From assembly GCA_019637095.1 (NCBI GenBank), contig JAHBWG010000016.1:53865-117864 (forward strand): a stretch of DNA of 64,000 nucleotides, in the 5' to 3' direction. A model generated the notes under the pieces. The model was not told the origin of the DNA. It searched no databases and saw nothing but the letters and a program-made list of their open reading frames with translations. The DNA is from Sandaracinaceae bacterium (GTDB lineage Bacteria; Myxococcota_A; Polyangia; Polyangiales; Sandaracinaceae). Below, piece after piece: positions 19,171-24,670 of the stretch. Positions within the stretch are counted from its first letter, which is position 1; each line of letters opens with the position of its first letter. Position numbers and translations under genes: made by a program.

Positions 19171-20298
19171 ATGACGAAGAAGAAGACGAAGAGCGTCCCC
19201 ATCAACCTCCTCGAGCTCGAGGCGGCCGCCCGCGCACGCCTCGACGACAACGCGTTCGACTACTACGCGAGCGGCGCCCACGACGAGCTGACGCTGCGCG
19301 AGAACCGCGCCGCGTTCGAGCGCATCGCCCTGCGCTACCGCGTGCTCGTCGACGTCTCGCGGCGCGATCCCTCGACCGAGGTGCTCGGCGCGAAGGTGTC
19401 GATGCCCGTCCTGATCGCGCCGACCGCGTTCCACCGCATGGCGCACCCGGACGGAGAGCGCGCGACCGCGCGCGCCGCCGCCCACGCGGGCACGCTGATG
19501 ATCAACAGCACGCTGTCGAACACGCCGATGGAGGAGGTCGTGCTCGCCGCGGGCGCCGCGCCGGTGTGGTTCCAGCTCTACGTGTACAAGGATCGCGGCG
19601 AGACGAAGGCGCTCGTCGAGCGCGCAGAGGCCGCGGGCGCGCGCGCGCTCGTCCTCACCGTCGACGCGCCGCTCCTCGGGACGCGCGAGCGCGATCGGAG
19701 GAACCGCTTCCGCCTGCCGGCGGGGCTGACCGTCGCGAACATGACCGCCGTGGGCAAGGGCGAGCTGCCCGACGTCGCCGACTCCGGCCTCGCCGCGTAC
19801 TTCGCGACCATGCTCGACCCCTCGATCACCTTCGACGACCTCTCGTGGCTCAAGTCGGTCACGACGCTCCCGCTCGTGGTGAAGGGCGTCGTGCGCGCCG
19901 ACGACGCCGCGCGCTGCGTCGCCGCGGGCGCCGACGCGGTGGTCGTCTCGAACCACGGCGGCCGGCAGCTCGACACCTCCGTCGCGACGATCCGCGCGCT
20001 GCCGGAGGTGGTCGACGCGATCGGCGGCCGCGCCGAGGTCTACGTCGACGGAGGCGTGCGCCGCGGCACCGACGTGCTCAAGGCGCTCGCGTACGGCGCG
20101 CGCGCGGTGCTCCTCGGGCGCCCCGTCCTCTACGGGCTCGCGCTCGACGGCCAGCGCGGCGTGGAGCGCGCGCTCTCCATCCTGCGCGAGGAGCTCGACC
20201 TCGCGATGGCGCTCGCGGGCTGCCCCGACGTCGCCGCGATCACGCGCGACCTCCTCGCCGACGGCCCGAGCGAGCCGGCCTCGGGTCAGCGGCGGTAG
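19171..20298 (+). CDS. lldD: FMN-dependent alpha-hydroxy acid oxidase/dehydrogenase (L-lactate or glycolate type)
   Basis: A 375-residue TIM-barrel flavoenzyme oxidising an L-2-hydroxyacid to the 2-oxoacid. Visible active-site elements include DYYASGAHDE near the N-terminus, WFQLYVYKD, LTVDAP, the FMN lysine in VVKGV, the catalytic base and substrate arginine in SNHGGRQLD (His262, Arg265), and the phosphate loop YVDGGVRRGTDVLKAL. No membrane anchor is seen. An alternative GTG at 19156 overlaps the upstream kinase stop as GTGA. Lactate versus glycolate cannot be told by eye. Its last 273 bases are duplicated at 24018-24290. Confidence 0.9.
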   Translation: MTKKKTKSVPINLLELEAAARARLDDNAFDYYASGAHDELTLRENRAAFERIALRYRVLVDVSRRDPSTEVLGAKVSMPVLIAPTAFHRMAHPDGERATARAAAHAGTLMINSTLSNTPMEEVVLAAGAAPVWFQLYVYKDRGETKALVERAEAAGARALVLTVDAPLLGTRERDRRNRFRLPAGLTVANMTAVGKGELPDVADSGLAAYFATMLDPSITFDDLSWLKSVTTLPLVVKGVVRADDAARCVAAGADAVVVSNHGGRQLDTSVATIRALPEVVDAIGGRAEVYVDGGVRRGTDVLKALAYGARAVLLGRPVLYGLALDGQRGVERALSILREELDLAMALAGCPDVAAITRDLLADGPSEPASGQRR

Positions 20299-20678
20299 GT
20301 AAGCGACACGCCGCCGGCGGCGTCGCCCTCGGGCGTGATCATCATGAACGGGACCGGCACGGCGGCGTCCTCGAGCGCGCGCATCTCGCGGGTGAGCTGG
20401 CGCCGGGCGTGAGCTCCCCCCATCCAGCGGACGAGCCCCCAGATGCCCGCGACGGCGGCCGCCGCGACGACCACGAGCGAGCCGATCGCGAGCCCGGCCC
20501 ACAGCTGCTCCGCCTCGTCGTTGCGGGCCGCGAAGGTCGCGAGCATCGAGAAGGACCCGAACAGGGCCGCGCCCACCAGCAGCGGCATGCCGATCAGCGT
20601 CGCGGCCGCCGGGCCGTCGAGGTCGATGGCGTCGTGCTCGCGCCGGAGGCACTCGAGGCGCGTGCCGCACGGCACCTC
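20026..20678 (+). repeat. 653-bp direct repeat, left copy
   Basis: This copy covers the 3' end of the hydroxyacid oxidase gene and most of the convergent membrane-protein gene. It aligns without gaps to 24018-24670 at a constant offset of 3992, with 16 mismatches by eye (about 97.5% identity). Homology stops abruptly on both sides. Together the two copies bracket the low-GC insert. Confidence 0.95.
20286..20675 (-). pseudogene. 5'-truncated copy of the membrane-protein gene at 24278-24805
   Basis: A 129-codon frame that matches residues from about 48 onward of the intact paralogue at 24278-24805 (from PCGTRLECLRRE to the end). It has lost the signal peptide and first 47 residues, and upstream it is joined to a remnant of the lipoprotein gene pair. 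Differences from the intact copy are few (for example NDEAEQLW versus DDEQETLW). Two hydrophobic segments remain. A GTG at 20675 could start translation, but without the export signal the product is probably non-functional. Confidence 0.85.
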
Positions 20679-20692
20679 CTCGTGGGCTGGAT

Positions 20693-22222: not shown

Positions 22223-24017
22223 TCATAGCGCGCTCAGCGTCGCCACCCAGCTCGAGCTGGTGCGCGTGAGATCCACCGAGTTCACGGCGTTCGGCATCAG
22301 CTCGACCGGGGAGCCGAAGAATCCAGTCCCCGTGCCGACTCTATCGGTGGAGAACAATGCCCTCGAGGCGTTGTTGCCCCGCCACACGATTCGGGTTCGG
22401 TCGGTGCCGGCATCATAGGCCATGCCGAACGGGCGCCGCGTGCGGTAGTTCTGAAACGCGGACCCGAGGTTGCCCGGCGACCCGAGGGTGTAGGTGCTAC
22501 CACCACCTGTCACGTTCACCGCGAGCTGCACCATGCGGTGCATCGTCGCGATGTCGGGATCGTCCTGAGCCGCCGTGAGGAGGTTGGGCGCCCCCGAGGG
22601 GTGGAAGACGGCGCCCCCGAGGAAGCGGTAGCGTCGATGCGACGAAGCGAGCACGGGGGACTGCCACCACCCTCCGGGGGCCGCCGCCCGCCAGGTCGAG
22701 TAGAGATAGCCATCCGAGGCTCGAATGAAGAAGAGCACGAACCGGTCCCGGTACCCATCGTACTCGAGGACGGGCCGCGTGATCGTTCCGAAGCCCGCCT
22801 CGATGGACGACTGGACCCAGCTCCCGCCGAGGTTGCTGGACCAAGCCGTGTGGATGGGACAATGGACGGATCCCGCTCCACACGGGCCCACCGCGGCGAC
22901 CGCCACCTCGCCGTAGGCGCTGTACGACACGGCGACCGGCAGGCGACGACCCGCCGCGTTCGACGGGTAGCTCGCCGGCGGGGTGAAGGCGCCGCCGCTG
23001 CCGGGGACGCCGAAGCGGGCGCGCCAAGCGCGGACGTCCATGTTCGGCCACGCGACGAGAACCTCGCCCGAGCTCTGACCCGGCAGAGTGGCTCGCCGGG
23101 CGATCGCCGGACCGACCGTGGTGAACCGCTCCGGGTAGTGGCTCGTCACGAGCTGCGGTGCAGACCAGCTCACCCCGGTCGTCGACGTGGTGTACGAGGC
23201 GACGCGAGACGAGAGCCCAGAGCGGAGCTCGATGGTGTTGGCGTCGATCGTGAACAGGTGACGAAACGCGTTGTGAGTATCCTGGACATAGGCCGGTATC
23301 ATCACGGAGCTGCCGCCCGCGTCGGTGTGCAGGATTCCCCAGACCGCATGCACGATCTCGTGAACGAGCACCCCTTCGAACATGATCCCGAGGCCGGGTG
23401 AGAACGAGGTCCTCCAGTCGCGAACCGTACCATCGCAGTTCTTCAGGAAGATGGCGACGCCGGAACCTTCGGACCCGCAGTTCCAACTGCTGGCTTGGCC
23501 GAGCGGGTTGTTGTTTACGACGCCATCCGGGCAGGGCTGGGTCGGGCAGCACTCCCGGATGTCCTGAAAGCGAACCGTCAGCGCGTTGGGGATGAACGGG
23601 ACGTCTCCGGCGTCACCCGCGTAGTAGAGGTCGACATGCGCGCCGGATTCCTCGTTCAAGATGGCCAACGCGTTGAGGAGCGTTTCGCGCACCTGGTCGA
23701 CGTTGAACCCGTTCGCGGCGAGCGTGCCCGGGATGAAGTAGACCGGGACCGAACCGCTCCAGGTGCAACCGGTATAGGGGAGGGTCTGCGCTACCGCCGG
23801 GGGGGGGGGGGGGGGGGGAGGGGGGGGGGGGGGGGGGCGGGGGGGGGTCCATCATTCGCTGCCCCGGGGAAGCATGGTTCATACCCCGTCGCGAGGCGGT
23901 TGTAAGCGACGGAACTGCTCGCGCGATCCGCGCCGTCTCGGCACGGCAGCGGCTGTCGCGTGGGACATGCTGGCACGGTCTTGGTGCTCCCCGGCTGCTC
24001 AGGTGCCGAGACTCTCG
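22223..24017 (-). pseudogene. 5'-truncated secreted metalloprotease with BNR/propeller-like C-terminal region
   Basis: The uninterrupted part (22223-23692, 489 residues from a GTG) carries HEIVHAVWGILH at about 111-122: a zinc HExxH site with a possible third histidine ligand. Several cysteines precede it. From about residue 150 the repeats read like a BNR/sialidase-type beta-propeller. Coding character continues upstream of 23692 (for example PYTGCTWSGSVPVYF), reaches the G-tract at 23799-23847, and resumes beyond it in another frame up to the repeat junction at 24017, with no signal peptide. The gene is therefore truncated or broken, or misassembled. It heads the insert's leftward operon. 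Confidence 0.65.
23799..23847 (+). repeat. 49-base near-pure poly-G tract
   Basis: Forty-seven of 49 bases are G; the exceptions are A at 23819 and C at 23838. On the coding strand it would be a polyproline stretch inside the metalloprotease gene. Nothing like it occurs elsewhere in the window. It may be a real slippage-prone tract or a two-colour sequencing/assembly artefact. Confidence 0.9.
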
Positions 24018-24290
24018 GGCCGCGCCGAGGTCTACGTCGACGGAGGCGTGCGCCGCGGGACCGACGTGCTCAAGGCGCTGGCGTACGGCGCGCGCGCGGT
24101 GCTCCTCGGGCGCCCCGTCCTCTACGGGCTCGCGCTCGACGGCCAGCGCGGCGTGGAGCGCGCGCTCTCGATCCTGCGCGAGGAGCTCGACCTCGCGATG
24201 GCGCTCGCGGGCTGCCCCGACGTCGCCGCGATCACGCGCGACCTCCTCGCCGACGGACCGAGCGAGCCGGCCTCGGGTCACCGGCGGTAG
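24018..24290 (+). pseudogene. 3' fragment of the hydroxyacid oxidase gene
   Basis: These 90 codons plus stop encode the C-terminal end of the FMN-dependent oxidase, from about GRAEVYVDGGVRRG to the end, nearly identical to the intact gene at 19171-20298. The reading frame is kept but the N-terminal three quarters, including the catalytic histidine, are missing. It lies at the left end of the right-hand direct repeat. No functional product is expected. Confidence 0.92.
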
Positions 24291-24670
24291 GTGAGCGACA
24301 CGCCGCCGGCGGCGTCGCCCTCGGGCGTGATCATCATGAACGGGACCGGCACGGCGGCGTCCTCGAGCGCGCGGATCTCGCGGGTGAGCTGGCGCCGGGC
24401 GTGAGCTCCCCCCATCCAGCGGACGAGCCCCCAGATGCCCGCGACGGCGGCCGCCGCGGCGACCACGAGCGAGCCGATCGCGAGCCCGGCCCACAGCGTC
24501 TCCTGCTCGTCGTCGCGGGCCGCGAAGGTCGCGAGCATCGAGAAAGAACCGAACAGGGCCGCGCCCACCAGCAGCGGCATGCCGATCAACGTCGCGGCCG
24601 CCGGGCCGTCGAGGTCGATGGCGTCGTGCTCGCGCCGGAGGCACTCGAGGCGCGTGCCGCACGGCACCTC
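24018..24670 (+). repeat. 653-bp direct repeat, right copy
   Basis: Gapless match to 20026-20678 with 16 differences by eye. This copy runs into the intact membrane-protein gene on its right, while the left copy runs out of the intact oxidase gene. Recombination between the copies would remove 3992 bases and restore one intact copy of each gene. Confidence 0.95.

Follow-up and report, generated by a model that had tools for sequence, protein, structure and literature searches.

How does a block of DNA come to lie across the overlapping ends of two genes and still leave an intact copy of each? This question is raised by a locus of a Sandaracinaceae bacterium (order Polyangiales, assembly GCA_019637095.1), which we analyzed within a 64,000-nucleotide stretch of contig JAHBWG010000016.1 (positions 53,865 to 117,864), referred to here as the window; coordinates are those of the window unless another contig is named. 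At this locus a 3339-bp insert (20679..24017) stands between two direct copies of a 653-bp segment that holds the ends of an oxidase gene and of a small membrane-protein gene. A first-pass annotation, made from the sequence alone, had likened the arrangement to the product of a Campbell-type integration, in which a single crossover takes up a molecule carrying a homologous segment. The structure is real and of a known kind, and to it our analysis adds support for a related-strain donor and a warning of a possible assembly seam. As the origin of the insert we tentatively favor a single homologous (Campbell-type) crossover within the shared 653-bp stretch, by which it would have arrived as part of a donor molecule of a related strain.

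Geometry of the locus and its proposed origin

The left copy of the repeat, R1, occupies 20026..20678 and the right copy, R2, occupies 24018..24670, as determined by a repeat search and direct comparison. The copies are 653 bp each with a spacing of 3992 and differ at 16 positions without a gap, giving 97.5% identity. The repeat boundaries, length, spacing and mismatch count reported in the first-pass annotation were all reproduced. Similarity between R1 and R2 dropped to background immediately at both ends, and a gapped comparison of the flanks measured against random partners detected no homology above background past either junction. A search for direct repeats of the window at a minimum length of 90 returned one further family, of 99 nt, located within the insert.

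R1 and R2 cover the overlapping tail-to-tail ends of the oxidase and membrane-protein genes. On the left side, the gene for a flavin mononucleotide (FMN)-dependent alpha-hydroxy-acid oxidase/dehydrogenase (19147..20298, plus strand; Pfam FMN_dh, E 4.9e-139) is intact with its 3' part inside R1, and the membrane-protein gene (20286..20675, minus strand) is a 5'-truncated copy that open reading frames (ORFs) and alignment showed to be free of stops and frameshifts. On the right side, the oxidase gene is a 5'-truncated copy of the last codons only (24018..24290, plus strand; detected as FMN_dh by Pfam on the ORF at 23874-24290) that is still open, and the membrane-protein gene (24278..24805, minus strand) is intact, encoding 175 amino acids from the likely start as judged by comparison with the distant relatives P0002 and P0003. 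This pairing of intact and truncated genes had been claimed earlier and was recovered here using ORFs, Pfam and alignment. Together with the repeat it establishes the Campbell-like geometry as real: a host segment is present in direct copies around an insert, and each gene that spans it has an intact copy on one side of the insert and a truncated copy on the opposite side.

In the origin that we favor, the cargo would have been linked on the donor to that molecule's own allele of the 653-bp stretch, and the host recombination machinery would have made one crossover within that stretch. The stretch would thereby have been duplicated and therefore every broken gene end would be backed by an intact copy. 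Recombination in reverse between the repeats would excise the cargo. Supporting this origin are the exact repeat, its abrupt ends, the intact outer gene copies, the open reading frames of the truncated copies and a contrast in third-position base composition. The least supported part of the proposal is that the donor was circular.

The composition of the insert was lower in guanine plus cytosine (GC) than that of the window, by less than had been claimed. The first-pass annotation had given about 64% against about 74%, and the measured values were 68.5% for the insert average and 74.5% for the whole window. Individual 500-bp steps within the insert had GC of about 63 to 72%. When the window was scanned in 100-base steps, its 3.3-kb stretch of lowest GC (68.5%) started at 20701 and nearly coincided with the insert. 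GC at third codon positions (GC3) was 0.77, 0.84 and 0.85 in the three main cargo genes as compared to 0.96-0.98 in six flanking genes; a seventh flanking frame (0.52) was judged to be a wrong frame and excluded.

Differences between the repeat copies and relatives of the host genes

The first-pass annotation had attributed the 2.5% divergence of the copies to either a related-strain donor or an old event. An in-place duplication of the 653 bp would have left the truncated oxidase gene on the right and the truncated membrane-protein gene on the left free to decay. In the oxidase-only part of the repeat, all four differences are silent third-position differences and three of the four are C/G. 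When neutral decay was simulated, the silent and C/G features arose jointly in about 1 of every 100,000 trials if the mutation spectrum was assumed to be AT-biased, and in 1.3 per 1,000 if it was flat. Over the whole repeat, 6 of the 16 differences are C/G and 5 are transitions, counts that are unusual under the assumed AT-biased spectrum (0.00025 for C/G and 0.0011 for transitions). Ten differences set A/T against G/C, and by manual count the A/T base is in the truncated gene copy at five and in the intact copy at five.

Comparison with the oxidase of G004, a genome of the same family, showed third-position differences to be C/G in 99 of 110 cases, and the differences between the repeat copies of the oxidase therefore resemble ordinary divergence of working alleles. 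At the four oxidase sites R1 matches G004 at three and R2 at one, with the last site poorly aligned, and the totals are 196 vs 195 of 233. Seven of the differences between R1 and R2 fall within 51 bp (p 0.005 under random placement), partly where the two distant relatives of the membrane protein have a gap. As read from these substitutions, whose counts are small, the pattern favors two diverged working alleles brought together over a local duplication followed by decay. Of the two sources named in the first-pass annotation, the related-strain donor is therefore the one favored, and an old local duplication is less favored.

At E 1e-60 or better the oxidase was found in two of ten family genomes, its own included. 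G004 carries a single such oxidase with no insert and with a different downstream gene, and no membrane-protein gene is present in the 1.8 kb left on that contig. The membrane-protein gene was not found in the nine other family genomes. Across the order, the membrane protein was detected in 4 of 183 genomes (its own, and three others with weak matches only, at E 9.5e-6 to 7e-4) among the best 16 candidates per genome, using a query that carried a doubtful 35-residue N-terminus. In the phylum sample at E 1e-6, only its own genome of 377 was recovered among the best nine candidates per genome. A pattern scan of a collection of genome contigs for the membrane protein gave 95 pattern matches with no relative among them, and the protein collection contained two proteins of 46-49% identity, listed without genomic context.

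Cargo genes and their relatives

The three main cargo genes are all on the minus strand, in the order zincin-like gene, lipoprotein-like gene B and lipoprotein-like gene A. The zincin-like gene (22223..23692, minus strand) was recognized by an HExxH motif seen by eye and by a weak Pfam match to Peptidase_M10 (E 0.01, below the cut-off); the predicted structure of its product had a mean predicted local distance difference test score (pLDDT) of 30.8, too low to use. Gene B (21478..22209, minus strand), assigned by eye, encodes 243 amino acids and overlaps the start of gene A (20876..21481, minus strand), which encodes 201 amino acids with a lipoprotein signal by eye. Between gene A and the left junction lies a decayed partial duplicate of the lipoprotein pair (20679..20865, minus strand), comprising the end of B and the start of A. 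It is cut at the junction and was identified as an 87% repeat by alignment and reading frames.

Lipoprotein A has relatives at two other places in its own genome, and a search of the 182 other genomes of the order yielded none. The relative on contig C79 (L026 8116-8697) is full length and about 48% identical and adjoins a serine/threonine kinase gene. On contig C176 (L025 7818-8246), a relic of the cargo cluster and a serine/threonine kinase gene lie tail to tail. The relic keeps the order of the cargo, in which the end of A comes first, then its start and then a short zincin fragment with a broken frame. Because of these relatives and the ordered relic, the cargo is best viewed as one copy of a cluster that the lineage has carried more than once. 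Searches of the assembly turned up no other complete copy of the cargo. When searched against the protein collection, lipoprotein A matched itself only, and the zincin protein matched itself only among candidates capped at 7993. The zincin protein had no relative among plasmids and viral contigs, and in the order it had three weak matches (27-28% identity), all in 1 other of the 183 genomes. By these sequence comparisons the cargo is lineage-restricted, not exotic. The genome with the zincin matches (G017) belongs to another family of the order, and its three relatives are dispersed (L030, L031 and L032), with a signal-peptide-like N-terminus, by eye, at L031.

Mobile elements were assessed as carriers of the cargo and rejected. 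A site-specific integrative element or prophage was rejected as the scanned cargo ORFs contained no integrase or recombinase: Pfam gave no mobile-element match on the three larger ORFs and PHROGs matched none of nine at E 0.01, the shorter ORFs being unscanned, in agreement with the earlier remark that no integrase is visible. An element of the attachment-site (att) type was rejected on the repeats, which are 653 bp and 2.5% diverged and not short or identical, and on the position of the sole transfer RNA (tRNA) gene of the window at 44903-44975. For a transposon, the insert ends had no paired inverted repeat of at least 20 nt (shorter ones were not sought) and the duplication is 653 bp. An Rfam scan of 17000-28000 gave no match. 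Outside the locus, a perfect 27-bp tandem duplication was observed at 26932-26985 in a gene for an alanine- and aspartate-rich repeat protein (26404-27330, minus strand).

The G-tract, rival explanations and known systems

The cargo contains a 49-bp G-tract of the form G20 A G18 C G9 (23799..23847), located where the zincin reading frame has its 5' end and separated from R2 by 170 bp of insert (23848..24017). The tract holds the sole homopolymers of at least 7 in the window and the sole G runs of at least 14 in the 9.25-Mb assembly. G runs of at least 18 occur in 51 of the 183 order genomes, this one included. We read one such locus in each of ten others of these genomes, and in 10 of 10 the tract was at most 262 bp from a contig end or about 100 bp from a run of N; the contig ends were deduced from shortened flanks. 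Long G-tracts therefore often mark break points of assemblies. The contig here extends for kilobases to either side of the tract, which is possibly an assembly seam and possibly a length-variable (slippage) tract. The ATG codons upstream of it do not share the reading frame of the zincin gene; provided that the tract is genuine, a slippage-controlled gene in the off state would be expected to look like this. A mixture of strains in the assembly was also considered and rejected, as a 19-kb piece of the window had a best other identity of 71% and the 6.5-kb locus had 79% over 267 bp, in the cargo only.

Several observations weigh against a single crossover with a related-strain donor. A donor circle would itself require two joins without homology, each lying within a gene, and the known occurrence of plasmids in two myxobacteria only, as stated in PMC11705834, counts mildly against a plasmid as that circle. 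Searches found neither an empty site nor a donor, a circle or a second strain, in a sample in which the genus was represented by this genome alone. The relatives of lipoprotein A are confined to the same genome, indicating that the cargo family is not foreign to the lineage. Interior cargo sequence was possibly lost at the G-tract, which could hide a larger insert. The substitution evidence comes from just 4 and 16 differences, and under a flat spectrum the whole-repeat counts are ordinary (0.20 for C/G and 0.55 for transitions). Where the two genes overlap, a fifth difference in the oxidase alters one residue near its C-terminus and is silent in the membrane-protein gene. Across the 129 residues of the membrane-protein part of the repeat there are 5 amino-acid differences, a number that by itself would also be compatible with relaxed selection. 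The same geometry could in addition be produced by a linear donor anchored at one end or by a local duplication with captured filler. In the first of these, a possible but doubtful alternative, a linear donor bearing the 653-bp allele and the cargo would have used homology to pair at one end and would have been joined at its other end with none, on a sister chromosome, duplicating the 653 bp (homology-facilitated illegitimate recombination). The usual products of such recombination are deletions and replacements and not duplications, which counts against it. It dispenses with a circle, the substitution evidence for a related donor is equally applicable to it, and it agrees with both junctions lacking homology above background beyond the repeat. 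Counted in its favor as well are the merodiploids documented to arise by transformation (PMC3784515) and the one-ended mechanism proposed for Vibrio effector arrays (PMC5361080).

A local event would involve the fewest separate events, as the whole structure could come from one aberrant event: template switching in replication, or a tandem duplication of the 653 bp that captured the cargo as filler, after which the copies diverged in place. Cargo-like sequence would have been available since a related decayed cluster lies elsewhere in the genome, and the ordinary flat-spectrum counts and the amino-acid differences of the membrane-protein part also speak for such an event. We nevertheless consider it unlikely, as the differences in the truncated oxidase copy are silent and C/G-rich, the truncated copies show no excess of A/T, and no complete second cargo was recovered from the assembly. 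That the locus is an assembly artefact, with 23799-23847 a false or collapsed join and the 3.3 kb not one continuous insert, is quite unlikely in our assessment. The uniqueness of these G runs in the genome and the nearness of such tracts to contig ends or N runs in all ten loci read point toward an artefact. However, both sides of the tract carry copies of one repeat in the right order and orientation, which would rarely be expected from an accidental join among 197 contigs, and a join of unrelated ends is therefore unlikely; missing interior sequence is the likelier fault. The junctions themselves are removed from the tract (by 3.1 kb at 20678/20679 and by 170 bp at 24017/24018), the 19-kb window piece has no near-identical second copy in the genome, and such tracts are common enough in the order to be possibly real. 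A functional reading, which we regard as highly improbable, is that the locus acts as a recombinase-free presence/absence switch: the repeats would let host recombination remove or carry the cargo while both convergent genes stay whole, and the G-tract would add a second, slippage-based on/off control of the zincin.

If the single crossover with a related-strain donor is correct, the locus would offer a natural example, legible in the sequence, of gene acquisition by a single crossover in a bacterium with a large genome, with no recognized mobile element and with the incoming segment marked as a related-strain allele by sequence evidence. The locus shows that insertion into two overlapping convergent genes is tolerable when their shared ends are duplicated, and that long G-tracts can flag weak points in assemblies of this kind.

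Campbell-type (insertion-duplication) single-crossover integrants are made in the laboratory with a circle bearing a gene fragment. As in those integrants, a homologous segment is directly duplicated around an insert here, the overlapping genes are each present as one intact and one truncated copy, and no recombinase is needed. Unlike the laboratory products, the locus is natural, its repeats are 2.5% diverged, neither a vector gene nor a replication gene was recognized, decayed gene pieces and a G-tract are present, and no circle was seen. Integrative genomic islands flanked by att sites restore the 3' ends of genes. The locus resembles them in its insertion at gene 3' ends, in the genes being kept whole and in its border direct repeats, and is unlike them in having no recognized integrase, repeats of 653 bp that are 2.5% diverged, and no tRNA site. 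The transformation merodiploids of Streptococcus pneumoniae (PMC3784515) are likewise repeat-bordered duplications formed by ordinary recombination with incoming DNA without a need for active transposases; those span about 100-900 kb between chromosomal repeats, whereas the locus has 653-bp copies enclosing a 3.3-kb cargo that differs in composition. Homology-facilitated illegitimate recombination, as proposed for the effector-immunity arrays of Vibrio cholerae (PMC5361080), similarly places non-homologous genes beside a homologous anchor with parts of the old gene remaining. In those arrays the homology is on one side and the effector is displaced, whereas at the present locus the homologous stretch flanks the insert on both sides and neither host gene is lost.

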